Positions 30,001 to 63,700 of a stretch of 64,000 bases of DNA are shown here, in pieces; the stretch's first letter is position 1; the number at the start of each line of letters is the position of its first letter. The notes below the pieces were generated by a model. That model did not search any database, was not told the origin of the DNA, and saw only the letters and a program-made list of their open reading frames with translations. The position numbers and the translations under genes are program-made. Origin of the DNA: Mytilus galloprovincialis (Eukaryota > Mollusca > Bivalvia > Mytilida > Mytilidae); NCBI RefSeq assembly GCF_965363235.1, contig NC_134844.1:15978646-16042645 (forward strand), read 5' to 3'.

Positions 30001-33000
30001 GATCTCCACTCAGAAGGACCTTGTGCTACCTCAGACAGGACATTGGCCAAATTAGGTACAAGTAAAATGGACCAGGAAACACTATCACAGTTATTGCATA
30101 AAATCCCCTCCAGTCATAGTAAAGAGTGTACACAGATGTATACAGAACATAGGAGCTTATTTAATCAGTGGATGTATCAAATGTGGTAGGTTCTTACTGA
30201 AAAGACAGACAGTCAGATACTATTGACCTTTCCACAATAGGGAGCAATGTCTTTAGATTTTAAGGATTGGCAGATTTCCTAGCATTGACAATGATTTTAT
30301 ATATAAAACTCATGTTGATCTTTTGTCCATGGAAATGTTTGAAGAATTTTTTCTGGAATGTGGGATAGTTGCCTACAATGGAAAAAAAGACAAAATGTAT
30401 ATAATCTTTTGAACTATAAGGAACATATTTACCAATCTTTCAATGGCCAATGAGATGAGGTTGACCCTTTATAGGTTTAAGGTCAACAATTTTTCCCCCG
30501 AATGATAGCATATGACTATAAACTTTCATCAGACATTGTTGGAAAATATTCCTAGGAAAAAAAACAAAGTTCCTAATGGCTTTTATGTCAATAGATAAAA
30601 AGTCAAGGTCATTGTACCTTTAAATAGACTGAAATTGTAGTTTCATGATGTGAAGTTTGTGGATAAAAATTTCAAGCATGATCTTGTATTGGACATGAAG
30701 GTTCTATAAAGCTTTTTCTCTAATTCTTCGTCAATTTACCTCTTTCTGCACCCATTGTATAAAAAAAATTAATAAACATGTGGTTCTTTTGATCCCAGTT
30801 CTTCATCGGTGAAAATCTGATTTTGATGTCAAATTTTCTTGTTTTCCTCTGAAGTTCCTATTGTGACGGCATGAAAAAATGCAACCATGCCTGATGACGT
30901 CACATGGAAAGAAAACATATTTTTGTAGATCAATCGTAAAGAAGCAATAGGTATGTCTGCATATTGTTTAAAAAATCATTAGAGAAACAGATTCCACCAC
31001 CAAGTCGTGTAATATGATATTTATCCACTTTCGACAATTAAATTTTAATTATTTAAAACGCTCAGCGAGCCTCACATTTAAAATTTGAAAATTAAACTGT
31101 CTAAGTGGATAAATATTGTATCACAATTGTTGCAGGGGTAGATATATTTATTTCATTTCTACTGAAATTATAAACTTTAGTTAATATATAGAATTTATTG
31201 TATATTTTGTAGCAATAATTTCAACATTCTGCTGCATGGTTTAGGATCAAAGAGAACCTTACTAGAAGATTTCAGGAAGACCATGTTATCAGAGTTATCA
31301 CATGTTGTTGTGAATGGTTATTTCCCTAGCCTGACAGTCAAACATGTAAGTTATCTCCCTCTACTTCCTCAACATAACTTATTAAAACATTACCTCCCCT
31401 TACTACCACAACATAACTTATTGAAACATTACCTCCCCTTACTACCTTAGCATAACTTATTAAAGCAATGGATATTTCGCTAGCCTGATAGTCAAACATG
31501 TAAATTATCTCCCCTTAATACCACACCATAACTGATTAAAGCAATGGATATTTCCCAAGCCTGACAGTCAAACATGTAAATTATCTCCCCTTAATACCAC
31601 ACCATAACTGATTAAAGCAATGGATATTTCCCAAGCCTGACAGTTAAACATGTAAGTTATCTCCCCTTAATACCACACCATAACTTATTAAAGCATTGGA
31701 TATTTCCCAAGCCTGACAGTCAAACAGGTAAATTATCTCCCCTTACTTCCACAACATAACTTATTAAAGTATTGGATATTTTCCTAGCCTGACAGTCAAA
31801 CATGTAAGTTATCTCCCCTTCCACAACATAACTTAAAGCATTGGATATTTTCCTAGCCTGACAGTCAAACATGTAAGTTACCTCCCCTTACTACCACAAC
31901 ATAACTTATTAAAGCATTGGATATTTTCCTAGCCTGACAGTCAAACATGTAAGTTATCTCCCCTTACTACCACACCATAACTTATTAAAGCAATAGATAT
32001 TTCCCAAGCCTGACAGTCAAACAGGTAAATTATCTCCCCTTACTTCCACAACATAACTTATTAAAGCAATGGATATTTCCCTAGCCTGACAGTCAAACAT
32101 GTAAGTTATCTCCCCTTCCTCAACATAACTTAAAGCATTGGATATTTTCCTAGCCTGACAGTCAAACATGTAAGTTATCTCCCTTTTCTTAAACAACACA
32201 ACTTAAAGTATAGTAGCAAGGAAGAGATCATCGGCAAGTAATTCTGTTATCACACACCTTGTTTAATAGCCTTTAGATTAAGATATATTATTTGGTCATG
32301 TTGTAAGTAAGTTTCTTATACAGCTTTGATGTTCTGGTACTAATTGTCATGTGTGAAGGCAATTATCCCTGAGGTACAATCTATTTATATAAATGCGGGA
32401 GGGTGAATTTTTATGCGAAATTAGAGTTTTTACCTCATTTTCAGTCTACTGACCATTGAAAATGAGTGTGAATGTGGCATTCTTTTGTTTTTTAATAATT
32501 TTTTAACATGTGTCTTCTATAATTGAATGTTTATATGATGTATGCAAAATTACTCCACACAAAGTATGTTGGTTTGTATTTTAGAGTGTTGGGTTTAAAC
32601 TTTTAAAGAAAACTTTCAATACATCAAAAGGATCCTTGAAATCTTGATAAATTTGAACTCTGACATCAGGGATGGGGTAATCGTAACCTGTAATCGTAAT
32701 CGATTGTAATTGATTACATTTTTTCAAGTAATCGACAGTAATCTGTAATCAAAGACATGTTCGATTACATGTAATCGTAATTTAATCGATTACAGCAAAA
32801 ATTTGGATGTAATCATCTATTACTTTTCAATTACATTTCGATTACTTTAGTAAAATAGTTTGATGAAAAATAACCTATTTCAGAGGAAAATATGTATGTT
32901 ATCACTTTGTAGTAAAGATAAAATATAATGCATCAACAATACTTAATTAAGTAATTGAGAGAGTTAAGCAACTGCCTTATTTCTATCTATTGTCTCTAGC

Positions 33001-36000
33001 TGCATTATGAGCAACCAGATCCCCTACCTAAATTTACTTTATATCTAGCTTTTGAAACAAATGAATGTATGTTCTTGTCAATAATTCAAGAGCTTTAATA
33101 TTAAAATCAGAAAATACATTTGAAATAATAAAATAGATCTTTATCATTTGTTAATTAAGAAATGTGTCTGTCTTTCATGAAGTTCTGTACTACATTTTTA
33201 AAAGTAGTATTAAGCTTCTTTGTATTAAATTTCCTGAAAACATCATTTTCAATCAGAGTTGAAATTAAAGCTTAGAATACATAAACAGTTGATTTCTTAA
33301 ATGTTATAATATACATGTATATAAATAAAATTAAAAAAGAACACAAAATCCTTTTAACAATGCGCCAATGGCAATGCATTGCAATTCTTTTTAGAAATAG
33401 ATACATGTATCCATTTGACACTATAAATATATTTTGTATATAATTTGATTGGAGAAGTTAACAAATCTTAACAACATTTGGTTTAGTCACGTTTCTCCAA
33501 CATTTGATAATTAGACTAAAACAACATAAGGGATTAGGGGGTCCTTATAAGGACTGGCATCGTGATAATTACCTGTAATTCACCTATATCAGGTCTTAAC
33601 TCAACTATTGTAAAAAGGGGGATATTGTTAAATAATATTTATGTCAAAACATTAACAAACCATATATTTTTGGTCGAGTATAACCAGAAACGGTTACGTA
33701 ATTATTTTCATCCGCCGTATTTGATTTACAAAATTAAAAAGGTTATTCAACAAAAAAATCCTTAAATAAACAAGGGAAATTCTAATCAAACTGAAAATTT
33801 CATAAAAAATTATGAAGAAATAATCTCGAAATTATTTTTTTTTTAAAGATTTTTTTTTATTTAAAGTAACATGTTCACTGACTGTACCTCATTTTAGTAA
33901 TTTATTCCATTACTTGATATATTTTTGTATTTCTGTTACATGCCGATGTTAAAATCTAAACCGATGCAAAACAGCCAAGTTTTATTTATGTAAAAAGTCA
34001 CCAAAAGCGATTGTCTTCTAGTGCGAAGAACCATATATCTATCTACCTAGTCGTTCTGTCTGTATATCACTAGAGCCGAAGCCAGTTTTCGTGGTATGCT
34101 TTCTTGGCAACATTGTAATCTATGATACATTATTATGAAAAATAGAGAACAAAATTATGAAAAAAAGCAAAAAATTGCTTCCGGCCGTACGGTAACGGAT
34201 ACTGGATGTGTAGTGATTGATAATTTAGTCTTAGATTATTTGTTGCTTGTGTATGTATGTTTTTGTACAGTTCTTTTATTGTTCTGTTGCACCAATGTCT
34301 CAAGATAAGGGGGAGTGTTGGAGCCTGTAATTCGGTGTTTGTCGTTGCTGTGTAATATATTCGTTTTTCGTTCATTATATTGTACATAAAAAAGGCCGTT
34401 ATATTTCTCGTTTGAATTGTTAAACATTTGTTTTCTCGGGTCCTTTTAAAGCTTACTATGCGGTTTGACTTTGCTCATTGTTAAAGGCCGTACGGTGATC
34501 TATATTTGTTAATGTTTGTGTCATTTGTTCTCTGGTGAATAGTTGTCTCATTGGCAATCATACCACATCTTCTTTTTTATGTATAATTGTTAACTTCTGT
34601 TTCATTTGGTCTCTTGTAGAGAGTTGCCTCATTGTCTATCATACCATGCACATATAAAATAAAAAATTACAACACTGTGTTAGACTATATGGACTTTTAC
34701 AATTTTGGGAGACTATTAAAAAATATATATTTCTTTAAAAAATATATACCTCTTTAACAATATTTTGGTCAAGAACAGGTGAATTACAGGTAGATATCAA
34801 GATCCAGTCCTTAAGAGGACCCCATAATCCCTAGTGTTGTTTTAGTCTAATTACTAAATGTTGGAGAAACGTGCCTTTACTAATGAGCTGATCAAAGTCT
34901 TCTAATCAGTAAGAAACATACTTTCATTGACTTTGTTTTTATTTCAATTATCTTATGTCTAATTAAGAAGGAAATTTACAATATTTAGCCCCAGGTTATA
35001 AATTGTACTCCAGTAGCAGTTAAATAATCTGTAATTAGGGTGGTTATCCAAACAAATAGTTTAAATCATGCATGTCATTATAAAAATAAATTTTGATCTT
35101 AAAAATCAGATGAACTAATTAATTATTGTACTTTTTTTATATTTCCTTAAACATTATAAATTAACTATGCTAAAATATTTTTTTTAAAGAGTAAAAACAA
35201 AAAGCTCAAGTAAGTCAGTAAGAAAGCAAAATTTTTGAAAAACAATTAGTTATGAATAAGTGATTGGTGCAATGCGATGACATCTTTCATTAATGTTGAA
35301 AGTCAAAATTTCAAGATTTTTTAAATATTTCTAATCTTCATTAAGAGATTTGATCTAAAAAAACAGCTATTTACTTATAATTTAGAAACAATGATTTAAA
35401 TGATGAATTTGGTAAAGTTCTTAATTTCCACTATACAAATGTTGAGCAATATAATTGTGTGTTACTCATGTTATTTTTTTGTTGAAATGTTGAAGCATGT
35501 AATTGACAGTAATCGAAAAGTAATGTAATTACTTTGGATAAAATAATCGATTGTAATCGATTACATAATAAAATTTGAGTAATCGATTATTAATCGATTG
35601 CACAAAAATCCTTCATGTAATCGATTATTAATCGATTACATTTGTTTGTAATCGTGCCCATCCCTGTCTGACATAATACCATTCTGACCATAAAAGTGTC
35701 AAAAGAATGTAATGTGATAATAGTTTTATGAAGTATTAAGTCTCCCTATTTTGGTCTATTTCTTTATTTGACAAGTATCTGCATAAAAAATTAGAACAGA
35801 AGAGGCAATACTGCCAGATACAGTAAATACATTCGAATTCAACTAGTATGTTTCAGTTATTGTATTTAATTTATTTTTTACAGATATTGAATTCAATAAC
35901 AGATGAAATATTGGAGAAAGAAGTTAGTTTTAAAGGACCGTTAGACCAAGTAGATTATATCAAATCAGAATTTGAATCAAAAGGTAGGTTTCAGAGTGTA

Positions 36001-39000
36001 CAGACATTGTTATAAAGGAGCTCTAGAAAAGAAAAATTGTAACAAAACAAATTTGATAATTTTATCCAAAAAAATTCCAGTTATAAAATGTTTGTCTGCT
36101 CTATGGTTATGGTTGTTGATGTTTTGACACATTCCCTATTTCCTTTATCAATTTTTTATGCCCCACCTACGATAGTAGAGGGGCATTATGTTTTCTGGTC
36201 CGTGTGTCCGTTCGTCCGTCCGTCCCTCCGACCGTCCGTCTGTTCGTCTGTCTGTCCCGCTTCAGGTTAAAGTTTTTGGTCAAGGTAGTTTTTGATGAAG
36301 TTGAAGTCCAATCAACTTGAAACTTAGTATACATGTTTCCTTTGATAAGATCAATCTAATTTTAATGCCAAATTAGAGAATTTATTCCAATTTCACGGTC
36401 CACTAAACATAGAAAATGATAGTGCGAGTGGGGCATCCGTGTACTGTGGACACATTCTTGTTTTAAAACAGTTATGGTATTTAAGGAATGACTGTAATAT
36501 TTAAGAAATAACATTAAAAATGGTGCACACTGAATAACAAGTGTAGCGGGTTATCTAACACTGCACCACATTTTATGCCCCATTTATGGGCATTATGTTT
36601 TCTAGTCTGTGCATTCATCCGTCCTATGTCCATCCGTCTGTCTGTACCTCCCGCTTCAGGTTAAAGTTTTTGGTTGAGGTAGTTTCTGATAGGTTGAAGT
36701 CCAATCAACATTAAACTTAGTACACATGTTCCCTATGATATGATCTTTCTAATTTTAATGCCAAATTAGAGATTTTCCCCCATTTTCACGGTCCACTGAA
36801 CTTAGAAAATGATAGGGCGGATGGGGCATCCTTGTACTGGGACACATTCTTGTTTATAATATTTCGAATATTACAGGGTTTTTTAATTTGTTTGTTTACG
36901 TATTTTCCCCATGAAAAAGTCGGGTCGGTCGGGGAAAAAAAAAGAAAAAAAATATCTTTCAAGACAGAAAAATATGCAAAATAAATATATATTTCACCTT
37001 TCTAACAATATGCTATTTATGTTATGCTATTTTGGCATAATTTCTTAAATTTTAGTTTGATGACATATTATTGCTCAGCTGTCATAAACATTGCATGACA
37101 TTGTCTAAAAATTTCTCGTAAAAAAAAGGGGGTGTGTACACAGCCAAAGACGAAATTAGATCTGCATTTCACAAACAAGAAAAACAGATTCGCGTAGCTC
37201 TTAATCAATTCCAGAAAACTTGGTGAATTCCTAATGATCTTCAAGCACAATAACTGATAAAAAAAAGAAATGTAAAATTTCATACGAAAATAAGTTTCAA
37301 CACACCTGTCAAAAACGTAATAGACTCGTCTACTGAAAAAACGAGAATATCGGGTTATTCTGTTGTCATGCATTCCTGTTTTTATCCAAATTGACGATAT
37401 TTTTTTATTATCTATGAAACAAGAAAATTCAAAATGATTTGTTAATATTCAGTACTTTAACTTGATGTCTTCCCCCTGTCCACATTTGGACAAGTCTATT
37501 TCTATGAGATGATGCATCTTACGGACTTATTGTGTAATTGGTTTTAAAAACAGGTTTCGTTCCGCAAAATTATTTGCGCAAACGTCATTTCAAGGTCAGT
37601 TATAATTAATTTGTCTATTTTTAGAAACATAACCTGGAAGTTTTATTTTTTCACAACAGAAAGTGTTATCAATTTTGTTAGTAATTAATGCATTTCATTT
37701 CATAAAAAAAGAACATTTTAATTATTTTTAAGGGAAAATGCATTTGTTAGGGTCGGCGGGAATAACAAGTGAAACTGCGAGCTACTGCTCACTGATGATA
37801 CCCCCGCCGCAAGTGGATAATATTAATAGTGTAAAAATATGCAAGTGTTCGGTAAACAGGAAGTTGTCGAGTGATGAATCTGAAAACGCATCACACGGTA
37901 TAGCTGACTTATAAAAATCCTGAAACCAAATTTCAGAAATCCTTGTATTGTAGTTCCTGAGAAAAATGTGACGAAAATTTTTAACTTGGTTATCATGTGT
38001 AGAATCATACAAGTGTTCGGTAAACAGGAAGTAGTCGAGTGATGAATCTGAAAACGCATCACACGGTATAGCTGACTTATATAAATCCTGAAACCAAATT
38101 TCAGAAATCCTTGTATTGTAGTTCCTGAGAAAAATGTGACGAAAATTTTCAACTTGGCTATCATGTGTAAAATCATACAAGTGTTCGGTAAACAGGAAGT
38201 TGTCGAGTGATGAATCTGAAAACGCATCACACGGTATAGCTGACTTATATAAATCCTGAAACCAAATTTCAGAAATCCTTGTATTGTAGTTCCTGAGAAA
38301 AATGTGACGAAAATTTTCAACTTGGCTATCATGTGTAAAATCAGACAAGTGTTCGGTAAACAGGAAGTTGTCAAGTGATGAATCTGAAAACGCATCACAC
38401 GGTGTGGCTGACTTATATAAATGTTGATACCAAATTACAGAAAGGGTGGATGTGTAGTTCCTGAGAAAAATGTGACGAAAGTTTCATGGGACGGACTGAC
38501 TGACGGACTGACTGACGGACTGACTGACGGACGGACGGACTGACAGACAGAGGTAAAACAGTATACCCCCCCTTTTTTAAAGCGGGGGTATAAAAAATCA
38601 TGAAAAGTCAATTTTATTTTTATTCTGGAAATCGGCAAAATTGGGTCGGCAAATCCGTAAACCAACAAATTAAAAAATCCTGGCTTGATAGTTTAATTCT
38701 AAATACCATTTTCAATAAGTGATTTGTAAAAAAAGGTTGATGAAGTCATGGTCACATGACACAATAATGTCTATGAGCTGATAAACAAAATTATATCTCA
38801 TATTGACATAAACATTTAAAAAAAAATCACTAAGAGTGATAATGCAAATGATTTCTACTCTTAACCATATTTTGTGTTTTTTCTTCAGATTACAGAGATT
38901 TTTATTTGGTAATGAATAATATAGATGGTATGATGTTACGAGGGGAGAAGACACAGAATATACTGAGTCTCTTAAGTCAGATCAGAGGGTTCCATGTTAT

Positions 39001-42000
39001 TGCTTCTATTGACCACATCAATGCCTCTCTAAGTAAGTAATGTACTCCTAAACTCAGATCAGAGGATTCCATGTCATTGCTTCTATTGACCACATCAATG
39101 CCTCTCTAAGTAAGTAATGTACTCCTAAACTCAGATCAGAGGGTTCCATGTCATTGCTTCTATTGACCACATCAATGCCTCTCTAAGTAAGTAATGTACT
39201 CCTCAACTCAGATCAGAGGATTCCATGTCATTGCTTCTATTGACCACATCAATGCCTCTCTAAGTAAGTAATGTACTCCTCAACTCAGATCAGAGGATTC
39301 CATGTCATTGCTTATATTGACCACATCAATGTCTCTCTAAGTAAGTAATGTACTCTCCTCAACTCAGATCAGAGGGTTCCATGTTATTGCTTCTATTGAC
39401 CACATCAATGCCTCTCTAAGTAAGTAATGTACTCCTCAACTCAGATCAGAGGGTTCCACGTTACTGCTATTGACCACATCAATGCCTCTCTAAGTAAGTA
39501 ATGTACTCTCCTCAACTCAGATCAGAGGATTCCATGTTATTGCTTCTATTGACCACATCAATGCCTCTCTAATACCCCAGTCCCACTAGGCCACGATCGC
39601 ACTACGATCTGTGAAAAAAATGAAAATTTTGACGATCGTAATGCGATCGTGCAGATTGTAGTAAGGTCGTAGTACGGTCGTGATGAGGTCTTGATGATCG
39701 TGATGAGCGTGGCCAACTTTGAACATGTTCAAAACAGTCGTGGTGCGGTCGTGGCGAAATCAGGTCGTAGTAGAAGCGTAGTAAGAGCGCAGTAAGATCG
39801 TGGTAAGATCGCATAGGTCGCTGTACCATCGTAGCGAGAGCGCAGCGAAAGCGTGAATCTATTCGGAGAGACTGCGCTACGATCTCACAGCGACGTTATT
39901 ACGACCTCACTACGACCATCACGTTCTCATCGCGACCCAACTACGATTCCACTACGACTATACTACGTTTACACCACACTGTTCAAGACCATAGTACGAT
40001 TCTAGCACGACCTTGTCGCCCTCATCGCGCTGTTCCTACGACCTGACTACGTTCATACTACGACTTTCATTCCTATTGTCATTTTCACATAAAATATATT
40101 AAATCTCTCCAGGTTTTGTTTGTCTATATGTAATAAGGACTTCTTGTCCATTTTTTCTAACTACTCAACCATGCCACATTATGTATGAATGTGCCTAACC
40201 CAAGTCAGGAGCCTTTAAATCAATGATTGTCGTTTGTTAATGTGACAAAAAGCAGTTAGTTTTCTCGTTTGAATTGTTTTAAATTGTCATTTCGAGGCCT
40301 ATGCGGAATGGGCTTTGCTCATTGTTGAAGGCCGTACGGTGAATTAAAGTTGTTAATTTCTGTGTCATGCTGGTCTCTTGTGGAGAATTGTCTCATTGGC
40401 AATCATACCACATCTTCTTTTTTTGTTATATTCACACATCTGTGTCATCTCTTCTATCTTTCACTAAAATATCGTCCTTTGAAATTGATGGACCAAAAAT
40501 AGGTTGTAAGTCAGGTTGTATTGGTCAATCCGAAATCTTTGCTTGATCAGAGTTCGTAACTATTAGAGCTCTCTCTGCCTCTGAATCAACCCCTACCACC
40601 AATCCCACGTGTTCTAGTAGATTTTGGTGGCATGACTGTATTGTTTCCGAGAAATCTACGTATTAATCAGAAATAGAAGGAATGGAACTGTATTGATATG
40701 GAACACGATTTTGATATTATTGCTGAGAACGTGTTAAGATCGGTATGAACGTAGTATAATAGTGGTAAAAACGTGCTATAATCGCAGTAGAAGCGTGGTA
40801 CGATCGTGTTGCAATCGGATAACTCGTGGTATGGTCGTAGTGACAACGTGATGAGCGTAGAACGATCTTGATATAAAGCGTAGTGATGTCGCAGAATAAG
40901 CGCGGTGAGAACGTGGTATAATCGTAGCGGGATCGTTGTAGAAGCGTAATGAGGACGTAGTATCATCGTGAAAGCAACGAAAATTTACATTTTCATGCCG
41001 CTCATACCGCGACCTCACCACGATATGAATTTATTTTAGATCGCGGTGAGCGTGGTGCGATCGTGGTCTAGTGGGACTGGGGCTTAAGTAAGTAATGTAC
41101 TCCTCAACTCAGATAAGAGGGTTCCATGTTATTGCTTCTATTGACCACATCAATGCCTCTCTAAGGAAGTAATGTACTCCTCAACTCAGATCAGAGGGTT
41201 CCACGTTACTGCTTCTATTGACCACATCAATGCCTCTCTTAGTAAGTAATGTACTCTCCTCAACTCAGATCAGAGGGTTCCATGTTATTGCTTCTATTGA
41301 CCACATCAATGCCTCTCTAAGTAAGTAATGAATTCCTCAACTCAGATCAGAGGGTTCCACGTTACTGCTTCTATTGACCACATCAATGCCTCTCTAAGTA
41401 AGTAATGTACTCTCCTCAACTCAGATCAGAGGGTTCCATGTTATTGCTTCTTTTGACCACATCAATGCCTCTCTAAGTAAGTAATGTACTCTCCTCAACT
41501 CAGATCAGAGGATTCCATGTCATTGCCTCTATTGACCACATCAATGCCTCTCTAAGTAAGTAATGTACTCCTCAACTCAGATCAGAGGATTCCATGTCAT
41601 TGCTTCTATTGACCACATCAATGCCTCTCTAAGTAAGTAATGTACTCCTCAACTCTGATCAGAGGATTCCATGTCATTGCTTCTATTGACCACATCAATG
41701 CCTCTCTAAGTAAGTAATGTACTCCTCAACTCAGATCAGAGGGTTCCATGTTATTGCTTCTATTGACCACATCAATGCCTCTCTAAGTAAGTAATGAATT
41801 CCTCAACTCAGATCAGAGGGTTCCACGTTACTGCTTCTATTGACCACATCAATGCCTCTCTAAGTAAGTAATGTACTCCTCAACTCAGATCAGAGGGTTC
41901 CATGTTATTGCTTCTATTGAACACATCAATGCCTCTCTAAGTAAGTAATGTACTCTCCTCAACTCAGATCAGAGGGTTCCATGTTATTGCTTCTATTGAC

Positions 42001-45000
42001 CACATCAATGCCTCTCTAAGTAAGTAATGTACTCCTCAACTCAGATCAGAGGGTTCCATGTTATTGCTTCTATTGACCACATCAATGCCTCTCTAAGTAA
42101 GTAATGTACTCTCCTCAACTCTAATCAGAGGGTTCCACGTTACTGCTTCTATTGACCACATCAATGCCTCTCTAAGTAAGTAATGTACCCTCCTCAACTC
42201 AGATCAGAGGGTTCCATGTTATTGCTTCTATTGACCACATCAATGCCTCTCTAAGTAAGTAATGTACTCTCCTCAACTCAGATCAGAGGGTTCCATGTTA
42301 TTGCTTCTATTGAACACATCAATGCCTCTCTAAGTAAGTAATGAATTCCTCAACTCAGATCAGAGGGTTCCATGTTATTGCTTCTATTGACCACATCAAT
42401 GCCTCTCTAAGTAAGTAATGTACTCTTCAACTCAGATAAAATCGTCTCCATTGATATATCAATGACTCTTTAAGCAAAGTTACTTTTAATTTTCAGTATG
42501 GGATCAGGGTAAATGTAGCAGATTTAATTGGTTGTGGTTTGATGTTACAACATATCTACCTTACACTGACGAGACATCATATGAGAATTCATTACTGGTA
42601 CAACAATCTGGTTCCTTAGCCCTCAGCTCTATGACACATGTCATGAAGAGTTTGACACCAAATGCAAAGAATATATTTATACTGCTGACTAAGCACCAGT
42701 TAGAGAACAAAGACAACAGTACTTACATAGGTATACATGATTTAGTATCAGTTCATATACAACAGTACTTACATAGGTATACATGATTTAGTATCAGTTT
42801 ATATACAACAGTACTTACATAGGTATACATGATTTAGTATCAGTTTATATACAACAGTACTTACATAGGTATACATGATTTAGTATCAGTTTATATACAA
42901 CAGTACTTACATAGGTATACATGATTTAGTATCAGTTTATATACAACAGTACTTACATAGGTATACATGATTTAGTATCAGTTTATATACAACAGTACTT
43001 ACATAGGTATACATGATTTATTCTAATGCAACAACGTTTGTAACGTTCATTTTGATTGGATAACGTCACTTTCTTACATGGCATCAATTGACAATTGATG
43101 CTATGGGATGTACGCGCAAGCGCAGACGGCATATGACATATTTTAAATACATGTTTTAACGTTGTTTTTTGTCAGTTTCATTAGAATGGAGATAACAATA
43201 TTGTATTTTAAGCTCCGACGGCATCAATTTGGGATTTGATGGTCGCAAATACCCGTTTACTGTCTCTGCTAACGCGTCGCCAGTAAACTTAATTTGCGAC
43301 CATCAAATCCCCAATTGATGCCGTCGGAGCTTAAAATACAATACAGTTATCTCCTAAGTATCAGTTTATATACAACAGTACTTACATAGGTATACATGAT
43401 AAAGTATCAGTTTATATACAAATCATACAATGACTAATATCTGATGAATTTTGAAAAGCATATAAATGTTATAAATAGATTTCTGACTTTACTTTTAGCA
43501 TTCGTTCCAATTGAAAATTGTCTTTCTGTGTGTTTGACCATAAAGCTAGAAATGAAAATTTTAAAATTAAGGCCTTTTGCAACTTATTCAATGAGTAAAC
43601 AAACATAAAAAAAAAATTCTAAAGGAACAATGCTAAATATTTTGTCAGAAATCAACCTTTTATGTCAGTTTGACTGTCCCTTTGGTATCTTTCATCCCTC
43701 TTTTAATGTTTATATTGAAAAGATTGATAATATATATTGAATGAATACAACATCACATGCAGTTTTGTGAGTTGGTGCATGCATTTTCATGTGCTTGAAA
43801 CTTTTGTTAACAGAAGGTAAATTAATCAATGAGTGAATATGTCTTAGAAGAAATTAAAGGACCCAAACACCACAGAGAACACAAGTCAATATTCAACAGG
43901 ACAAAAGAACTGGCAAAAGGTTAAATCAACAGGTAAACTGCAAATGATTCTATTCTATTCATTTCATTTGCAATAAAAGATACAATCATTTTGGCAGAAA
44001 ATGATTTACTTTAGTATTTTGTAGGTATGTCTATACAAGATTTATACCAGCGATGTAGAGAAGGTTTCTTAGTCAACAGTGATCTCACCTTGAGGGCACA
44101 ACTGGTTGAATTTAAAGATCACAAGTTGATTAAGAGTAAAAAGGTAACCATTTTAAAACAAGCATATGTAACATAAATCAAGTACATTCACTTTTCATCA
44201 ACATTTTTCTCTTTATAACAAGTCATCATATACAAGTACATTTTCTACAACCTTCCTACAAAGTTTCGTAGGTCTGTTTATCAATTTATCTTTCCATCTT
44301 TACAAAGCAACTTCTTTGTTTGGTCACTAAAAAAACTATATAATAGTATATTTTTGAAGAACAACAGGAAAAATTAATTTAACATTTTTTGCCTGTTTTG
44401 CCAAATACTAATGAATTATAACTTAAAAGCAGAAAAGCAACAATGAAGGGAAAAACATTCCTTTGAAAAAGTCTGATAAAATGAGACCACAAAAGGCTCT
44501 TGCCATCTCTGGTCCCTTGCTAACTATGATCTTTCTAATTTTAATGTTAAAGTTTTGATGCCAATTTCACTGTCCACTGAACATAGAAAATGATAGTGTG
44601 AATGTGGCATCTGTTTACTATGGACACATTCATGTTTAAATCTCTGTAAAAAAAAACCAACATGAAACATATTTTGTCTGTTTTGTTAAATACTAATGCA
44701 TTACATAAAAGCAGAAAAGCAACAATTTTGGGGAACAAATTTTCCTTTGAAGGTTTTAGAAAATGAGTCCGAAAAAAGCTCTTGTCAACGGATATCTCTG
44801 GTCCCTTGCTTTCACAATTTCTTATAAAATTTCCCAAAATTTACATTGTCATTAGTCAATCCCACCATTTTAATTTTCAAACAAATCCATAATTCAGGAA
44901 AAGGATTTTACACTGACCCTCATTAATTTAAAATTCTTTTTATTATTTACTTGATGTCTCATTCAAATATACTCCACATTTTCTTTTATTGGCATTATTC

Positions 45001-45161: not shown

Positions 45162-45400
45162 TACTGTAGTAAAATAAAGAAACACAGGACTTAGACTATA
45201 GGTCATTTATCTGAGTTTAAAGAACAACAAGAAAGTTCAGTAGAGGATTGAAGAAACAAAAGACTGGGACTATGCCACCATAGGATGTATTCAAATATTT
45301 GTGATGTGCTCTAGGACAATGCCACCATATGATGTGTTCAAATATTTATATGTACTCTTTTCAATAAAATTGAATTGAAATAGAAATTTCTCTGTATGAC
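45162..45400 (+). terminator. ORC2 3'UTR with polyadenylation signals
   Basis: AATAAA at 45173-45178 is only 12 nt after the stop. AATAAA at 45363-45368 is the more plausible signal. The UTR contains a short duplicated stretch (TGCCACCATAGGATGTATTC near 45272 and TGCCACCATATGATGTGTTC near 45317). Confidence 0.55.
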
Positions 45401-51757: not shown

Positions 51758-54700
51758 CTGTTTGAAAGAAAAGCATATACTGTAAAAGCAGAAATTCTCG
51801 TGGAGGATCCGATTTAATTTGGTTTGTTTCGTGTAAAGAATATATCCACGAAATTAAAAACCACACGAAAATTTAACCTACATATAATATCACTTTCATT
51901 TACTGGAAACCATGAAATTAAATCCCCATGAAATCTTATATAGAGACAAATCAACGAAATTTTAACCCCACAAAAATTAATGTTTCTACAGTATATATGG
52001 TAGTTTTGTGTAGAACTGTAAATGTTTGCCATTGATTTCATGGGTTAGGCCCTTTTCAACTGATTTTTATAGTTTGTTCTAATGTTGTACTTTTAAACAG
52101 TCCCAGAAAGTGGTGCCTTCAAAAATGTTTAACCCCATCACATTATATATGTGCCTGTCCTAAGTCAGGAGCCTCTAATTAAGTCTTAGTTGTGTGTCTA
52201 GTTTCTCATATTTGTTTATCATTTATTGTTTTAAGTAGTATGTTCTAATGTTGTGCCTTTACAACACTGTCCAAGGTTTCGGGAGTGTTGACACCTTCAA
52301 AAATGTTTAACCCCATCACTAGTGCCTGTCATAAGTCAGGAAACCTGTAGTTCAGTAGTCGTTGTTGGTTCAGATACATGACTGACATATTTGTTTTTTC
52401 ATGAATGACTGTGTTATATATTAGTTTGTTAATTTTCTCAATAGAATTGTTTCCTATTTTTCATGTCAGGGCCTTTTATAGCTGACTATACAGTATGATT
52501 TTTTCTCATTGTTGAAATCCACACTGTTGCCTGTAATTGCTTTCCTCAATGTCATTTGAACTTTGGTGAATATTTTTCTCATTGGCAATCATACCACATC
52601 TCCATATTTATATCATAAAAGAAGGTATGAAAATATTTTCCGACTTTTTTAAACAATCCTCTTAACTTACCACTAAATACTTGCAGCATGTTCGTAGTCA
52701 TGCGACAGCCCAATACTGAGCTCTATATCCTCTACCAATAAATACTTACAGCATGTTCGTAGTCATGTGACATCCCCATACTGAGTTCTATATCTTCTAC
52801 CAATAAATACTTACAGCATGTTCGTAGTCAAGGCAGATTCCAAATAAGAAAGTTGAAAAGTTCCCAAAAATATATTTAACAAAATCAGCTTCAATGAAGT
52901 TCTGTTTTGGAATACATGTTATACTTATATAAGTAAACACTTTTTGACAAAAAGTAGATCTATTCGCATTATATTTTTTAAATAAAGAACACCTTAAAAA
53001 AATGTTGCTATCATAACAAAATTGACAGACATTTTGACGGAAAATTTTTATGTTAGCAACACAAAAAATCCTGATATTTTCAGTATTATCAAGGTTTGGA
53101 TGTATATCTTGATTTTATATGAAAGGCAAATTGGAATAAAACATTTCTGAACATCTGCACCAATAAAAAAGGAATTGTAATAACTTTAAAAAAGGATTAT
53201 CTTTGAGTTGCTAACATAAGATTTGACAGACATGAACAATGCTGCTAACATAAAATTTGACAGAAATTAAGTTGTTGCTAACATAAAAATTGACAGACTT
53301 TTTTGTTGCTAACATAACATTTGACGGACTTTTTTGTTGCTAACATAACATTTGACAGACTATTTGTTGCTAACATAATATTTGACGGACTTTTTTGTTG
53401 CTAACATAAGATTTGACGGACATTATTGTTGCTAACATAAAATTTGACGGACTAAAATGTGTTGCTAACATAAGATATTGACGGACTTGTTGCTAACATA
53501 AGATTGTGCTAACATAAATAAATTTGACAGACAATATATATTTGACATTTTTAACCAACATTGGAGATTTTATCCTAGTTGAAAGTCATATTAAGAACTC
53601 CTGCAAAATACCGCTGCCTGAAATTTAAAAAGATTTCAACCCAGGACAGATATCTCTAATTTGTAGCACGACCAAATGTTGCTAACATAAAATGTCAAGT
53701 TTGACAGAAATTATGTTAGCAACAGAATTGATAAAACTATTGATTAAATAAAGTAAATTGAAAGATCCAAAATGTGTATGTTTAATGTACATTATGAAAT
53801 ACAATTTTAACAGGCTTATATAAGTACCTACAATGATGTGGCAAGATTTTATGAACCTGTTGCTATCATAAAATTTATTGACAGACGAGCATCTAATAAG
53901 TAAGGTATTTGAAATTGAAAAAAATATATATCACAGATGTTTTTAACAAAAGAAAAGCAAAAGATTTAGAAACAGGGATGTTTGAATAATCAAACTACAC
54001 TAATAAAAACCATTATACCAGTGTCAACTTAAAGCATCGTAAAACATGAACCTTGTGTCAAAAAATGGGAAGTAATTTCCGTCAAACAGTTCACATTTTT
54101 CATCTTGTTTGGATCATTTCTACTTTTAATGGAAACAATCATATCCAATAATTGGTTTTCTTGCTTTATATAACATTCTTATTCAATATAACATTCACAC
54201 ATTATCATTCAAATAACAGTTAGTATTATTTATCTTAATTTGTTCTTTTTGACGGAATTTTTCATTTCTTTTTGGAATCTGCCTCATGTGACATCCCCAT
54301 ACTGAGTTCTATATCTTCTACCAATATATACTTACAGCATGTTCGTAGTCATGTGACATCCCCATACTGAGTTCTATATCTTCTACCAATATATACTTAC
54401 AGCATGTTCGTAGTCATGTGACATCCCCATACTGAGTTCTATATCTTCTACCAATATATACTTACAGCATGCTCGTAGTCATGTGACATCCCCATACTGA
54501 GTTCTATATCCTCTACCAATAAATACTTACAGCATGTTCGTAGTCATGTGACATCCCCATACTGAGTTCTATATCTTCTACCAATATATACTTACAGCAT
54601 GTTCGTAGTCATGTGACATCCCCATACTGAGTTCTATATCCTCTACCAATAAATACTTACAGCATGTTCGTAGTCATGTGACATTCCCATACTGAGTTCT

Positions 54701-57700
54701 ATATCTTCTACCAATATATACTTACAGCATGTTTGTAGTCATGTGACATCCCCATACTGAGTTCTATATCTTCTACCAATATATACTTACAGCATGTTCG
54801 TAGTCATGTGACATCCCCATACTGAGTTCTATATCTTCTACCAATAAATACTTACAGCATGTTCGTAGTCATGTGACATCCCCATACTGAGCTCTATATC
54901 TTCTACCAATATATACTTACAGCATGTTCGTAGTCATGTGACATCCCCATACTGAGTTCTATATCTTCTACCAATATATACTTACAGCATGTTCGTAGTC
55001 ATGTGACATCCCCATACTGAGCTCTATATCCTCTACCAATATATACTTACAGCATGTTCGTAGTCATGTGACATCCCCATACTGAGCTCTATATCTTCTA
55101 CCAATATATACTTACAGCATGTTTGTAGTCATGTGACATCCCCATACTTAGTTCTATATCCTCTACCAATAAATACTTACAGCATGTTCGTAGTCATGTG
55201 ACATCCCCATACTGAGTTCTATATCTTCTACCAATAAATACTTACAGCATGTTCATAGTCATGTGACATCCCCATACTGAGTTCTATATCTTCTACCAAT
55301 ATATACTTACAGCATGTTCGTAGTCATGCGACATTCCCATACTGAGTTCTATATCTTCTACCAATATATACTTACAGCATGTTCGTAGTCATGCGACATT
55401 CCCATACTGAGTTCTATATCTTCTACCAATATATACTTACAGCATGTTCGTAGTCATGCGACATCCCCATACTGAGTTCTATATCTTCTACCAATAAATA
55501 CTTACAGCATGTTCGTAGTCATGTGACATCCCCATACTGAGTTCTATATCTTCTACCAATAAATACTTACAGCATGTTCATAGTCATGCGACATCCCAAT
55601 ACTGAGTTCTATATCTTCTACCAATATATACTTACAGCATGTTCGTAGTCATGCGACATCCCCATACTGAGTTCTATATCTTCTACCAATATATACTTAC
55701 AGCATGTTCGTAGTCATGTGACATCCCCATACTGAGTTCTATATCTTCTACCAATATATACTTACAGCATGTTCGTAGTCATGTGACATCCCCATACTGA
55801 GTTCTATATCTTCTACCAATAAATACTTACAGCATGTTCGTAGTCATGCGACATACTGAGTTCTATATCTTCTACCAATAAATACTTACAGCATGTTCGT
55901 AGTCATGTGACATCCCCATACTGAGTTCTATATCTTCTACCAATAAATACTTACAGCATGTTCGTAGTCATGCGACATTCCCATACTGACTTCTATATCT
56001 TCTACCAATATATACTTACAGCATGTTCCTAGTCGTGTGACATCCCCATACTGAGTTCTATATCTTCTAACAATATATACTTACAGCATGTTCGTAGTCA
56101 TGTGACATCCCCATACTGAGTTCTATATCTTCTACCAATAAATACTTACAGCATGTTCGTAGTCATGCGACATTCCCATACTGAGTTCTATATCTTCTAC
56201 CAATAAATACTTACAGCATGTTCATAGTCATGTGACATCCCCATACTGAGTTCTATATCTTCTACCACTAAATACTTACAGCATGTTCGTAGTCATGTGA
56301 CATCCCCATACTGAGTTCTATATCTTCTACCAATATATACTTACAGCATGTTCGTAGTCATGTGACATCCCCATACTGAGTTCTATATCCTCTACCAATA
56401 AATACTTACAGCATGTTTGTAGTCATGCGACATTCCCATACTGAGTTCTATATCTTCTACCAATATATACTTACAGCATGTTCGTAGTCATGTGACATCC
56501 CCATACTGAGTTCTATATCTTCTACCAATAAATACTTAAGCATGTTTGTAGTCATGTGACATCCCCATACTGAGCTCTATATCTTCTACCAATATATACT
56601 TACAGCATGTTCATAGTCATGTGACATCCCCATACTGAGTTCTATATCTTCTACCAATATATACTTACAGCATGTTCGTAGTCATGCGACATCCCCATAC
56701 CAATATATACTTACAGCATGTTCATAGTCATGTGACATCCCCATACTGAGTTCTATATCTTCTACCAATATATACTTACAGCATGTTCGTAGTCATGCGA
56801 CATCCCCATACTGTAGTCATGTGACATCCCCATACTGAGTTCTATATCTTCTACCAATAAATACTTACAGCATGTTTGTAGTCATGTGACATCCCCATAC
56901 TGAGTTCTATATCCTCTACCAATAAATACTTACAGCATGTTTGTAGTCATGTGACATCCCCATACTGAGTTCTATATCTTCTACAAATATATACTTACAG
57001 CATGTTCGTAGTCATGTGACATCCCCATACTGAGTTCTATATCTTCTACCAATAAATACTTACAGCATGTTCGTAGTCATGTGACATCCCCATACTGAGT
57101 TCTATATCTTCTACCAATAAATACTTACAGCATGTTCGTAGTCATGTGACATCCCCATACTGAGTTCTATATCCTCTACCAATGTATACTTACAGCATAT
57201 TTGTAGTCATGTGACATCCCCATACTGAGTTCTATATCCTCTACCAATAAATACTTACAGCATGTTTGTAGTCATGTGACATCCCCATACTGAGTTCTAT
57301 ATCTTCTACCAATATATACTTACAGCATGTTTGTAGTCATGTGACATCCCCATACTGAGTTCTATATCTTCTACAAATATATACTTACAGCATGTTCGTA
57401 GTCATGTGACATCCCCATACTGAGTTCTATATCCTCTACCAATAAATACTTACAGCATGTTATTAGTCATGTGACATCCCCATACTGAGTTCTATATCTT
57501 CTACCAATAAATACTTACAGCATGTTCGTAGTCATGTGACATCCCATACTGAGTTCTATATCTTCTACCAATAAATACTTACAGCATGTTCGTAGTCATG
57601 TGACATCCCCATACTGAGTTCTATATCTTCTACCAATAAATACTTACAGCATGTTCGTAGTCATGTGACATCCCCATACTGAGTTCTATATCCTCTACCA

Positions 57701-60700
57701 ATGTATACTTACAGCATGTTTGTAGTCATGTGACATTCCCATACTGAGTTCTATATCTTCTACCAATATATACTTACAGCATGTTCGTAGTCATGTGACA
57801 TCCCATACTGAGTTCTATATCTTCTACCAATAAATACTTACAGCATGTTCGTAGTCATGTGACATCCCCATACTGAGTTCTATATCCTCTACCAATAAAT
57901 ACTTACAGCATGTTTGTAGTCATGTGACATCCCCATACTGAGTTCTATATCTTCTACCAATATATACTTACAGCATGTTCGTAGTCATGTGACATCCCCA
58001 TACTGAGTTCTATATCTTCTACCAATAAATACTTACAGCATGTTCGTAGTCATGTGACATCCCCATACTGAGTTCTATATCTTCTACCAATATATACTTA
58101 CAGCATGTTCATAGTCATGCGACATCCCCATACTGAGCTCTATATCTTCTACCAATAAATACTTACAGCATGTTCGTAGTCATGTGACATCCCCATACTG
58201 AGTTCTATATCCTCTACCAATGTATACTTACAGCATGTTTGTAGTCATGTGACATTCCCATACTGAGTTCTATATCTTCTACCAATATATACTTACAGCA
58301 TGTTCATAGTCATGCGACATCCCCATACTGAGCTCTATATCCTCTACCAATAAATACTTACAGCATGTTCGTAGTCATGTGACATCCCCATACTGAGTTC
58401 TATATCTTCTACCAATATATACTTACAGCATGTTCGTAGTCATGTGACATCCCCATACTGAGTTCTATATCTTCTACCAATATATACTTACAGCATGTTC
58501 ATAGTCATGTGACATCCCCATACTGAGTTCTATATCCTCTACCAATAAATACTTACAGCATGTTCATAGTCATGTGACATCCCCATACTGAGTTCTATAT
58601 CTTCTACCACTAAATACTTACAGCATGTTCGTAGTCATGTGACATCCCCATACTGAGTTCTATATCTTCTACCAATAAATACTTACAGCATGTTCGTAGT
58701 CATGTGACATCTCCATACTGAGTTCTATATCCTCTACCAATAAATACTTAAGCATGTTTGTAGTTATGTGACATCCCCATACTGAGCTCTATATCTTCTA
58801 CCAATATATACTTACAGCATGTTCGTAGTCATGTGACATCCCCATACTGAGTTCTATATCCTCTACCAATATATACTTACAGCATGTTCGTAGTCATGTG
58901 ACATCCCCATACTGAGCTCTATATCTTCTACCAATATATACTTACAGCATGTTCGTAGTCATGTGACATCCCCATACTGAGTTCTATATCCTCTACCAAT
59001 ATATACTTACAGCATGTTCGTAGTCATGTGACATTCCCATACTGAGTTCTATATCTTCTACCAATATATACTTACAGCATGTTCGTAGTCATGTGACATC
59101 CCCATACTGAGTTCTATATCTTCTACCAATAAATACTTACAGCATGTTCGTAGTCATTTGACATCCCCATACTGAGTTCTATATCTTCTACCACTAAATA
59201 CTTACAGCATGTTCGTAGTCATGTGACATCCCCATACTGAGTTCTATATCCTCTACCAATAAATACTTACAGCATGTTCGAAGTCATGTGACATCCCCAT
59301 ACTGAGTTCTATATCTTCTACCAATAAATACTTACAGCATGTTCGTAGTCATGTGACATCCCCATACTGAGTTTTATATCCTCTACCAATAAATACTTAC
59401 AGCATGTTCGTAGTCATGTGACATCCCCATACTGAGTTCTATATCTTCTACCAATAAATACTTACAGCATGTTCGTAGTCATGTGACATCCCCATACTGA
59501 GTTCTATATCTTCTACCAATATATACTTACAGCATGTTCGTAGTCATGTGACATCCCCATACTGAGTTCTATATCTTCTACCAATAAATACTTACAGCAT
59601 GTTCGTAGTCATGTGACATCCCCATACTGAGCTCTATATCTTCTACCAATAAATACTTACAGCATGTTCGTAGTCATGTGACATCCCCATACTGAGTTCT
59701 ATATCTTCTACCAATAAATACTTACAGCATGTTCGTAGTCATGTGACATCCCCATACGGAGCTCTATATCTTCTACCAATATATACTTACAGCATGTTCG
59801 TAGTCATGTGACATCCCCATACTGAGTTCTATATCTTCTACCAATATATACTTACAGCATGTTCCTAATCATGTGACATCCCCATACTGAGTTCTATATC
59901 TTCTACCAATATATACTTACAGCATGTTCCTAATCATGTGACATCCCCATACTGAGTTCTATATCTTCTACCAATATATACTTACATGTACAGCATGTTC
60001 GTAGTCATGTGACATTCATACTGAGTTCTATATCTTCTACCAATATATACTTACAGCATGTTCGTAGTCATGTGACATCCCCATACTGAGTTCTATATCT
60101 TCTACCAATAAATACTTACAGCATGTTCATAGTCATGTGACATCCCCATACTGAGTTCTATATCTTCTACCAATAAATACTTACAGCATGTTCGTAGTCA
60201 TGTGACATCCCCATACTGAGTTCTATATTTTCTACCAATATATACTTACAGCATGTTCGTAGTCATGTGACATCCCCATACTGAGTTCTATATCTTCTAC
60301 CAATATATACTTACATGTACAGCATGTTCGTAGTCATGTGACATTCATACTGAGTTCTATATCTTCTACCAATATATACTTACAGCATGTTCGTAGTCAT
60401 GTGACATCCCCATACTGAGTTCTATATCTTCTACCAATAAATACTTACAGCATGTTCATAGTCATGTGACATCCCCATACTGAGTTCTATATCTTCTACC
60501 AATAAATACTTACAGCATGTTCGTAGTCATGTGACATCCCCATACTGAGTTCTATATCTTCTACCAATATATACTTACAGCATGTTCGTAGTCATGTGAC
60601 ATCCCCATACTGAGTTCTATATCTTCTACCAATATATACTTACAGCATGTTCCTAGTCATGTGACATCCCCATACTGAGTTCTATATCTTCTACCAATAT

Positions 60701-63700
60701 ATACTTACAGCATGTTCATAGTCATGTGACATTCCCATACTGAGTTCTATATCTTCTACCAATATATACTTACAGCATGTTCGTAGTCATGTGACATCCC
60801 CATACTGAGTTCTATATCTTCTACCAATAAATACTTACAGCATGTTCATAGTCATGTGACATCCCCATACTGAGTTCTATATCTTCTACCAATAAATACT
60901 TACAGCATGTTCGTAGTCATGTGACATCCCCATACTGAGTTCTATATCTTCTACCAATATCTACTTACAGCATGTTCATAGTCATGTGACATCCCCATAC
61001 TGAGTTCTATATCTTCTACCAATATCTACTTACAGCATGTTATTAGTCGTGTGACATCCCAATACTGAGTTCTATATCTTCTACCAATAAATACTTACAG
61101 CATGTTCGTAGTCATGTGACATCCCCATACTGAGTTCTATATCTTCTACCAATATATACTTACAGCATGTTCGTAGTCATGTGACATCCCCATACTGAGT
61201 TCTATATCCTCTACCAATAAATACTTACAGCATGTTTGTAGTCATGCGACATTCCCATACTGAGTTCTATATCTTCTACCAATATATACTTACAGCATGT
61301 TCGTAGTCATGTGACATCCCCATACTGAGTTCTATATCCTCTACCAATATATACTTACAGCATGTTCGTAGTCATGTGACATCCCCATACTGAGTTCTAT
61401 ATCTTCTACCTTCAGGTTACATCTTCTACAAACGTCATCTCTACATTTTAATAATTTCTGAAATAAACATTGGTTCCGTTTATTGCTTGCCAAGTAATAT
61501 ATCAAGAACTTTAAACATCTTTAAAATGAGATTGGAAATGGGGAATGTGCCAAAGAGACAACAACCTGACCAAAGAGCAGGCAACAGCTGAAGGCCACCA
61601 ATTTGTATGTATTCAATTTAAACCTAACTAGAGTTTACATTTTGAAATTTTAATCATAGCCATGATAACAAATTTGAATAAATCTTTTATTTTTGTATCG
61701 TATCTGACAGCAAACAGGTATAAAATATGTGTTATTGCAAGCCATTGTTTTAAAAGGTAAATATCAGCAATATTGCAGAGGTAAGTACATGTATATGCAA
61801 TGTAATTCAAATACATTATCAACTTCTGTAGACTGATTTTTTTAACAAATGTTGGGAAATCAAACACCTATTTATTTATTAGGTATTAGATTTACGAAAA
61901 ATAATTTTAGGATTTTTCTATAACAGTAATTACTTAATTTAGTTATAATTTCTCTATGTTTTACAAGAGTCTATTTTTTTTTGTATGGTTATAGGTCCCA
62001 GGTTCTCCTGTCTAGTTCACCTATTTTGTATGAATTAAATCAACAATTTTTTCAGAAAATAAGATTATATTTTTTATTTTTAGTTATCTTTTTACAGGTT
62101 TAAGCAGCAAAAGTTGTATGCCAAATTAGATCTACAGAATTAAAAATTGCTGGTTTTAAGAACAATGAGACAACAATACTAAAACATGTGGAGTTTGAAA
62201 AAGTTTACAATCCAATATGTCGCTTTTTAATTGTTGCAGGTAGGAAAGTTCAGTAACTAACTTACAACGAAATCTGGGTTGACACCATCAGCTAAACTGT
62301 GGTCAAATGAACCAATGGTCATTAATCCTTTGAACTCTAACTCAGTACATTTGGTACGGATAAGATTGACTAGATCAGAAACCTTTGATGTTGATACACC
62401 ATTCTTATCTGAAAAATACCATTGAGATCATTGCATGTACATCATATTGGTTGTTGTATTTGTAATTTGTCTAGCATACCCCACCCTTCCCTACTTGTAA
62501 TTTAAAGTATTGAAACACAGAAAGTATGTTTCTCTCTAACACTACAAATCTGAAAAGTACTCATACTTTGCAATTCATCACTGTAAATCTACTGACCACA
62601 TATAAAGTCATTCTGTATAGTTGTTCCTGGAAAAAGTGTGACAGAAATATATGTTTCCATTCAATATATAGAATAAATAAGAGTTGCAGGATTATACCTA
62701 AGCTGATATGAAAAGGACACTTTTTAAGCTATACAAATACCTGATCTGGCAATACTGTACACGCTATATGGGTTTATCTTTTTGAATCATTGGCTGATCA
62801 AAGAGAACAATACATTATCATTGACAAGCTGCTCCTAAACTTGGAAAACTAAATTGAGAAATAATTTGAACAAGAACGTGTCCACAGTACATGAATGACC
62901 CACTCGCACTATAATTTTTTATGTTCAGTGGACCTTGCAATTAGGGTCAAAACTCTATTTTAGCATTAAAATTAGAAAGATCATATCACAGGAAACATGT
63001 GTACTGAGTTTCAAGTTGATTGTACTTCAACTTCATCAAAAACTACCTTGACCAAAAACTTAAACCTGAAGCGGGACAGACGGGCAAACAAACACACAGA
63101 CCAGGAAACATAATGCACCTCTACTATTGTAGGTGGGGCATAAAAAATCTTTGACGTCCGTGCACAGTATAATCACCTAGTCATATTGTTGCCTCATTTA
63201 AACAAAACTTACTTTCTTCTCTACTCGTATTGACTTGAACAAGTACTTTTAACTTTTCTGTTTTTCCTGCTTTTTCTAATTCTTTGTTTAACTTCTTTGC
63301 TAGCTTCTCAGAGTGAACAGTTTCACACATATAAAGGTTTGGAATGGCTTTAAAAGATATGAAGAAAAGATATTAGTTAGTATACATGTAATTAAATGAT
63401 ATAAAATAACAGAGTTCCAATGTCTCTTGCATTGTACATACATATTTTATCTATTCAAGGTACAATGGCAATAACTTAATAAAACATTTTTTTTTGTAAT
63501 GCTAACAAGACCATTTTCCATAAATTAAATGTTTCAACCATTTTTCACGTATAAATTTCAATAGCCCAATGCTTCATAACAGTTCTTCTAGCTTTTTTGA
63601 GTTATATATATATATATTCAGAAATCCGGAAAATCAACAATTTTCAGTGAATAAATTCCCATAATTTGGAAATGCAAAATCTAAACTTTATGCAAATTTA

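Follow-up and report, generated by a model that had tools for sequence, protein, structure and literature searches.

Arrays across splice junctions of ORC2 and PLPBP

The window, i.e., the whole 64,000-nucleotide stretch of Mytilus galloprovincialis DNA analysed here, carries the gene for ORC2 on the + strand, which was rebuilt as a model of 13 exons (17982-45161), and the gene for PLPBP on the - strand, with five exons inside the window. A 412-residue stretch of the ORC2 protein is 99% identical to Mytilus trossulus record P0001, and the counterpart of PLPBP is M. trossulus P0121. The Pfam search gave no name for any of three other peptides of the window.

By use of Tandem Repeats Finder, four arrays with units of 76, 77, 46 and 65 bp, in about 12, 25, 8 and 112 copies, were found to start at the 3' ends of ORC2 exons 8, 10 and 11 and of the penultimate exon of PLPBP, respectively (Table 1). 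Every unit of all four arrays consists of an exon end, the donor and the start of the intron. All the arrays of the original prediction were thus recovered at the predicted sites, its exon numbers were correct on the rebuilt gene models, and the presence of junction-spanning arrays at four donors is confirmed. The donor of the first PLPBP exon in the window is without an array.

Table 1. Positions of the array-bearing exons, the arrays and the inserted elements within the window
Feature	Position	Strand	Description
ORC2 exon 8	31213..31345	+	last 33 nt are array copy 1
ORC2 exon 8 array	31313..32205	+	76 bp, about 12 copies; 33 nt exon end, 43 nt intron
ORC2 exon 10	38889..39032	+	last 56 nt are array copy 1
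ORC2 exon 10 array, part 1	38977..39572	+	77 bp, 7.7 copies; 56 nt exon end, 21 nt intron
Element in mid exon 10 array	39573..41084		35-bp inverted ends (91%), TAA duplication
ORC2 exon 10 array, part 2	41085..42437	+	77 bp, 17.4 copies
ORC2 exon 11	42497..42730	+	last 18 nt lie within array copy 1
ORC2 exon 11 array	42713..43020	+	46 bp, 6.7 copies; 18 nt exon end, 28 nt intron
Insert in exon 11 array	43021..43357 (borders approximate)		inverted repeats
Exon 11 unit beyond insert	to about 43420		one further copy
PLPBP array, final part	52668..52830	-	2.5 copies
Element in PLPBP array	52831..54284		14-bp perfect inverted ends AGGCAGATTCCAAA
PLPBP array, main part	54284..61410	-	65 bp, 109.6 copies; 52 nt exon end, 13 nt intron
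PLPBP penultimate exon	61359..61457	-	last 52 nt are array copy 1

Each array is contained in an intron for which the exon on the far side was also identified. All four consensus units have a length not divisible by 3, and reading through the PLPBP donor leads to a stop after five codons. In the predicted ORC2 and PLPBP proteins of M. trossulus, the joints fit use of the first donor at all four junctions. In M. edulis, the PLPBP record likewise lacks an insert at the array joint, where one residue is changed; both comparisons are of predicted proteins. From these joints we infer that the first donor is probably used in this animal as well.

The exon 8 array is the most diverged of the four, with an average identity between neighbours of 0.86; the copies of the exon 11 array are almost identical to each other. 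Three of the four arrays (exon 10, exon 11 and PLPBP) are split by an inserted element. That of the exon 10 array is tentatively taken to be PIF/Harbinger-like, and that of the PLPBP array contains a 31-bp repeat of its own. Tandem arrays are difficult to assemble and the copy numbers come from one assembly, but 56 different unit versions are present among the 114 PLPBP copies (partial copies counted), and these versions, together with the insertions, make an assembly artefact hardly credible. As expected for a mussel gene, 26 bases taken from the PLPBP unit had no exact match in bacterial, archaeal or viral contigs.

Variation among copies and the surplus donors

A retained function of the extra donors had been proposed; they might serve, for instance, as additional U1 binding sites or as splicing insurance. 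With copy 1 counted, 151 of the 156 copies have kept the GT, and from copy 2 onward the donor 9-mers fall into 8 distinct variants, whereas 9-mers drawn at random from these units give 16.0 (P = 0.03). In none of the four arrays, however, was GT retained more often than the median dinucleotide of its unit, and in the most diverged array the G at +5 was lost from 5 of 12 donors. The presence of arrays at acceptors elsewhere in the genome (see below) is also against this proposal. Donor conservation was accordingly rejected as proof of function, the 9-mer being just slightly less variable and the GT itself unremarkable. By sequence, the extra donors appear to have no clear function, and we regard their retention for one as very improbable.

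The exonic part of the copies was also analysed for the type of variation. Three of the window arrays show variation, and of their 14 common exonic variants 11 were synonymous; the corresponding values were 2/14 and 1/13 in the wrong frames, and 12/46 for rare variants. When copy 1 served as reference, 3 common nonsynonymous variants were observed per 109 sites, compared with 11 per 59 sites in the intron (P = 0.001); when the majority of copies was taken as reference, the latter value was 6 per 59 intron sites (P = 0.054). Such a pattern would be given by repeated seeding of copies from the coding exon end, the array then being an archive of tolerated exon alleles. In toy models, shares above 0.4 were obtained only with exon-side growth, under some settings and with few variants. 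These models are crude, however, and no gradient was detected on moving away from the exon. In two other donor arrays, only 1 of 13 common variants was synonymous, with stop codons included, and the window set differs from these two at P = 0.0003. As a general rule, exon seeding was therefore discarded, since the pattern was present in three window arrays and failed in two others; we consider this explanation unlikely.

Splice junctions with arrays in the window and in the genome

The rebuilt junctions were scanned for copies in the intron, which were counted if their score exceeded the maximum obtained with 40 shuffled queries by more than 4. Such copies were found for 4 of 16 donors and for 0 of 16 acceptors (Fisher two-sided P = 0.10); with a score of 31 and a highest shuffled score of 30, the exon 2 acceptor was left uncounted. 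After random placement of the 10 window arrays (period at least 20; Tandem Repeats Finder rows merged by hand), at least four fell on donors in a fraction of 1.5e-5 of 200,000 trials, a figure that is post hoc because the finding had been chosen for its donor arrays.

For the search of donor arrays in the whole genome, AGGTAAGT repeated three times was used, with the backward pattern as control; 872 matches were obtained, against 505 for the control. Acceptor arrays were searched for with TTTTCAGG three times in the same way, giving 289 matches against 121. In C1 plus C2:1-18.37 Mb, the AGGTAAGT matches represent 17 distinct arrays and those of the control 7 (P = 0.03), a modest excess over the single listed control. 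Sequence was inspected for 9 of the 17, partly chosen by eye among the matches listed: eight begin at an open exon preceded by an acceptor, and for the ninth the exon side lies outside the sequence reached. Of eight acceptor candidates fetched among the matches listed, seven lead into an open exon at its start, those named being RPP30, MEMO1, a protein kinase and IFT172 (E 0.00015). In total, 15 more exon borders with this anatomy were found, i.e., these seven acceptors and eight donor exon ends on two other contigs, the latter including MCM6, a member of the prostaglandin reductase family and UBR4. The 8-mer AGGTAAGT is present at 1 of 16 window donors, and crude extrapolation from 17 arrays per 151.5 Mb gives about 155 such arrays genome-wide.

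These observations altogether lend partial support to the first interpretation of the arrays. Independent amplification of junctions in unrelated genes stands, being above random placement in the window. The restriction to donors does not, as acceptor arrays exist elsewhere even though none was found in the window, and a local process within 30 kb is contradicted by the donor arrays on other contigs.

Tandem duplication may have genuine hot spots at junctions, donors and acceptors alike, for example through breakage or polymerase switching at junctions that are transcribed. The proportion of array-bearing donors in the window and the excess of both splice-site patterns over their backward controls point in this direction; the match counts, however, are non-independent, since a single array yields many, and no DNA feature common to the units was found with respect to folding or base skew. 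Secondary structure of the unit was rejected as the cause because folding was no better than that of shuffles (z = 0.09, -1.06, 0.21 and -0.06). G-richness or R-loop formation was likewise rejected as a common cause, the coding-strand skew being opposite between PLPBP (G-rich) and ORC2 around exons 8 and 10 (C-rich). We consider junction hot spots quite possible, though short of probable.

Alternatively, junctions may not be preferred at all: in a minisatellite-rich genome, splicing would hide those arrays that happen to cross a junction, and the window would be a local cluster. The matches and arrays yielded by the backward control agree with this explanation. In addition, the 200 kb around the window contain five more arrays of period at least 20 and at least four copies (periods 74, 22, 160, 21 and 169), none of which was shown to touch an exon; no exon could be linked to the 74-bp array. 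The random-placement result argues against chance, as does the location of eight of the nine inspected AGGTAAGT arrays at exon ends, partly eye-picked as these were. Absence of any preference is a possible explanation, though less likely than not.

Origin of the arrays and relation to known systems

Microhomology of 6, 4 and 4 nt was detected at the ends of three of the four window arrays. The exon 10 array ends with TCAGAT and the PLPBP array with GGTA, 6 and 4 nt, respectively, in common with the unit start; the ORC2 exon 8 array showed no clear microhomology. When an exon point and an intron point are paired at random, microhomology of at least 4 nt occurs at a frequency of 0.0054. A short segment across the junction was probably duplicated, with microhomology of 4-6 nt in these three arrays, and then enlarged through unequal exchange or slippage. 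The real exon border is copy 1 in donor arrays and the last copy in acceptor arrays. If the first donor, or the last acceptor, remains in use, the other copies would be removed with the intron and gene function would be kept, the surplus splice sites being by-products rather than working parts. Growth of the arrays into the intron, as originally claimed, carries no additional weight, because every duplication over a donor would have this outcome provided that the first donor stays in use.

Repeated, independent amplification of donor junctions in a 30-kb region had been presented as not known to be described, but arrays of this anatomy are preceded by the amphioxus 'mirages' and, to judge from its title, by a human IFI6 minisatellite. 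In passages of PMC3087553 and PMC3902484, mirages are described for Adh3, the globins BflGb6 and BflGb9, PGBD5 and others as minisatellite-like repeats across the exon-intron boundary, 5' or 3', with splice signals in many copies and reportedly without interference in regular splicing. The four window arrays agree with them in a unit made of exon end, splice site and intron start, and with the fetched acceptor arrays both 5' and 3' intron boundaries are represented genome-wide. Mirages are further characterised by length polymorphism and somatic instability; the mussel arrays come from a single assembly. The mirage units in these passages are 10-160 bp long, BflGb6 having 3 and 6 units in two haplotypes; those of the mussel are 46-77 bp, in up to 112 copies. 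The mussel arrays differ in the presence of three within one gene, in the mollusc host and in the further borders genome-wide. We therefore consider it about 80% probable that the mussel arrays are junction-spanning minisatellites of the mirage type known from amphioxus, formed by tandem duplication across splice junctions with subsequent expansion, and tolerated.

The splice-donor minisatellite of human IFI6 (6-16) (Turri et al. 1995) likewise supplies several donors; by its title these are provided to the transcript, whereas the predicted proteins of related mussels favour the first donor alone. Tandem duplication over a splice-signal motif is also the basis of the intron gain from AG/GT proto-splice sites that a passage of PMC3087553 cites from Rogers. 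In contrast, the mussel array lies inside an existing intron with the coding sequence unchanged; no new intron in a former exon was detected, the proteins being gapless relative to those of relatives at the array junctions. Human introns within tandem repeats, such as UBC, have splice sites repeated along with the unit (part of PMC10809524), but there the repeats are coding and the repeated site is dual-specific, serving as donor and acceptor. Among the literature matches listed, at the level of titles and abstracts and with few subscription papers, no junction-spanning arrays were found for Mytilus or other molluscs.

As far as the passages cited go, the amphioxus arrays are reported gene by gene, while those of the mussel are present on several contigs in conserved genes (ORC2, MCM6, RPP30). 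The copies bear genuine exon ends and splice signals, which calls for caution in gene annotation. The mussel arrays make testable at scale the choice of the spliceosome among dozens of near-identical sites, and also a possible transcription-linked duplication of junctions and a possible contribution of arrays to intron growth or gain. Tentatively, and on the basis of the crude extrapolation above, junctions of Mytilus may be birthplaces of minisatellites genome-wide, with self-seeded donor or acceptor arrays in roughly a thousand introns, if not more; if so, a large share of Mytilus minisatellites would descend from exon borders.

Anatomy of the window arrays and their genes

Both genes were rebuilt from the window (see table). 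The solved ORC2 structures matched the core of the rebuilt ORC2, to which a M. trossulus record was 99% identical over 412 residues; PLPBP was matched by M. trossulus and M. edulis records and, more distantly, by solved relatives. By Tandem Repeats Finder, the four arrays of the original prediction were recovered as described. The repeat unit was found to consist of the last 33 nt of the exon and 43 nt of intron for ORC2 exon 8, 56 and 21 nt for exon 10, 18 and 28 nt for exon 11, and 52 and 13 nt for the penultimate exon of PLPBP. In each array, copy 1 was the genuine end of the exon and carried the genuine donor. Mean identity between neighbouring copies was 0.86 (exon 8), 0.955 (exon 10), 0.996 (exon 11) and 0.953 (PLPBP), and no drop of neighbour identity with distance was detected within the PLPBP and exon 10 arrays. 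All four arrays (31313-61410) are located in the 3' parts of the two genes, which converge on each other, and occupy introns 8, 10 and 11 of the 12 in ORC2 and the last intron of PLPBP.

Features rebuilt or detected in the window
Feature	Position	Strand	Description
ORC2	17982-45161	+	13 exons, rebuilt
PLPBP	five exons in window	-	rebuilt; unbroken translation
1.5-kb element in ORC2 exon 10 array	39573-41084		35-bp inverted ends, TAA duplication, many internal inverted repeats
Inverted-repeat insert	within ORC2 exon 11 array		
1.45-kb element in PLPBP array	52831-54284		14-bp perfect inverted ends, internal 31-bp tandem repeat

Later insertions interrupt three of the four arrays (exon 10, exon 11 and PLPBP), and the 1.5-kb element serves as a relative-age marker for the exon 10 array. 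The 1.45-kb element carries its 31-bp tandem repeat, with additional copies in the other orientation. ORC2 intron 9 carries about 4 copies of a 168-bp repeat followed by a GACT/GACG simple repeat (37829-38548), perhaps part of a mobile element, and a 47-bp duplication (45267-45358), probably within the 3' untranslated region, immediately follows the stop codon of ORC2.

Donor and acceptor arrays in the genome

Within 200 kb around the window, one further array of period 40-100 and at least 4 copies was detected. It lies about 100 kb upstream, has a 74-bp unit with donor-like CAGCAG/GTGATG and TATAA/GTAAAG, and covers about 4.9 kb, or some 65 unit lengths, of two fetched loci (L049:1-2000 and L009:1-2855); no exon was found beside it, the array extending beyond the fetched edge. 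The same 200 kb also holds four arrays with periods of 21, 22, 160 and 169.

In the whole 1.385-Gb assembly, the donor pattern AGGTAAGT, sought three times in a row at 30-60 nt spacing, gave 872 matches versus 505 for the backward pattern. Since matches cluster in arrays, distinct arrays are the preferable unit of count. A hand count of contig C1 plus contig C2 up to 18.37 Mb gave 17 donor, 7 backward control and 9 acceptor arrays among the matches listed (17 versus 7, binomial P 0.03); among the 7 controls, the one at C2:3036930 carries donor-like words on the opposite strand. Sequence was viewed for 9 of the 17 donor arrays, two delivered with the search and eight selected and fetched, with one overlapping. 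Copy 1 was the end of an open exon behind an acceptor in 8 of these 9; for the ninth (locus L042), the fetched sequence ends short of the exon side. Solved structures or Pfam gave firm names to MCM6, a prostaglandin reductase family member and UBR4, and a fourth gene gave a weak choline transporter match below the cut-off (E 0.0012).

The original prediction noted no array starting from an acceptor. The acceptor pattern TTTTCAGG, also sought three times in a row, gave 289 matches versus 121 backwards. Eight of at least 18 distinct arrays were picked by eye and their exon side was fetched; in 7 of the 8, the last copy leads into an open exon that has a GT donor behind it, the fetched sequence of the eighth (L054) ending short of the exon side. 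Genes assigned by Pfam or solved structures were RNase P subunit p30, a protein kinase and MEMO1, with IFT172 in addition (E 0.00015); the matches to CAND6/7 (E 0.0019) and to a sodium/hydrogen exchanger (E 0.074) count as no more than hints, and one gene had no match. As acceptor arrays exist, the donor-only claim fails; because arrays were picked by eye, these counts do not show how donor and acceptor arrays compare in number.

Among the rebuilt junctions of the window, 4 of the 16 donors had copies in the neighbouring intron and none of the 16 acceptors did (Fisher two-sided P 0.10). A copy was counted only if it scored more than 4 above the highest-scoring of 40 shuffled queries, and the exon 2 acceptor (31 versus a shuffle maximum of 30) was left out. 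When the 10 window arrays of period at least 20 were placed at random, one unit per array and with hits in coding sequence allowed only at its borders, at least four donor hits arose in 1.5e-5 of 200,000 trials, a post hoc figure.

Function and origin of the copies

A retained function of the extra donors had also been proposed. The consensus units of the window arrays shift the reading frame, and predicted proteins of related mussels lack any inserted copy. GT was intact in 151 of 156 copies, and other dinucleotides of the unit were likewise kept. Donor 9-mers showed 8 distinct variants versus 16.0 expected (P 0.03), and the +5 G was lost from 5 of 12 donors in the most diverged array. No firm sign of function was obtained.

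Three of the window arrays show variation; in these, 11 of 14 common exonic variants were silent in the exon frame, versus 2/14 and 1/13 in the other frames; among rare exonic variants 12 of 46 were silent. With copy 1 as reference, common nonsynonymous variants numbered 3 per 109 sites versus 11 per 59 intron sites (P 0.001); when the majority of copies served as the reference instead, the figures were 3 per 109 versus 6 per 59 (P 0.054). Rare nonsynonymous variants showed no depletion (P 0.36 and 0.77). Mostly silent common variants are expected if the copies descend from the coding copy. Two additional donor arrays gave 13 common variants, of which 1 was silent and which included stop codons; the five arrays pooled gave 12 of 27 (P 0.004), and the two sets differ (P 0.0003). 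Descent from the coding copy is offered as a lead only.

Past the last full unit, the unit start recurs in three of the four arrays, for 6 nt (TCAGAT), 4 nt (ACAA) and 4 nt (GGTA); when exon and intron points were paired at random for these 16 donors, 0.54% of 26,840 pairs shared at least 4 nt. The arrays may have been born by duplication through microhomology, which would leave such shared ends behind. No clear microhomology was detected at the end of the ORC2 exon 8 array, and the units showed no unusual folding.

In amphioxus, minisatellites that span exon-intron boundaries go by the name of 'mirages' (PMC3087553, PMC3902484). A human minisatellite with several donors has reportedly been described. 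Titles and abstract openings among the literature matches listed mention no junction-spanning arrays in molluscs. The features that seem new here are the phylum, an array size of 112 copies, the occurrence of three arrays within a single gene and the genome-wide spread.
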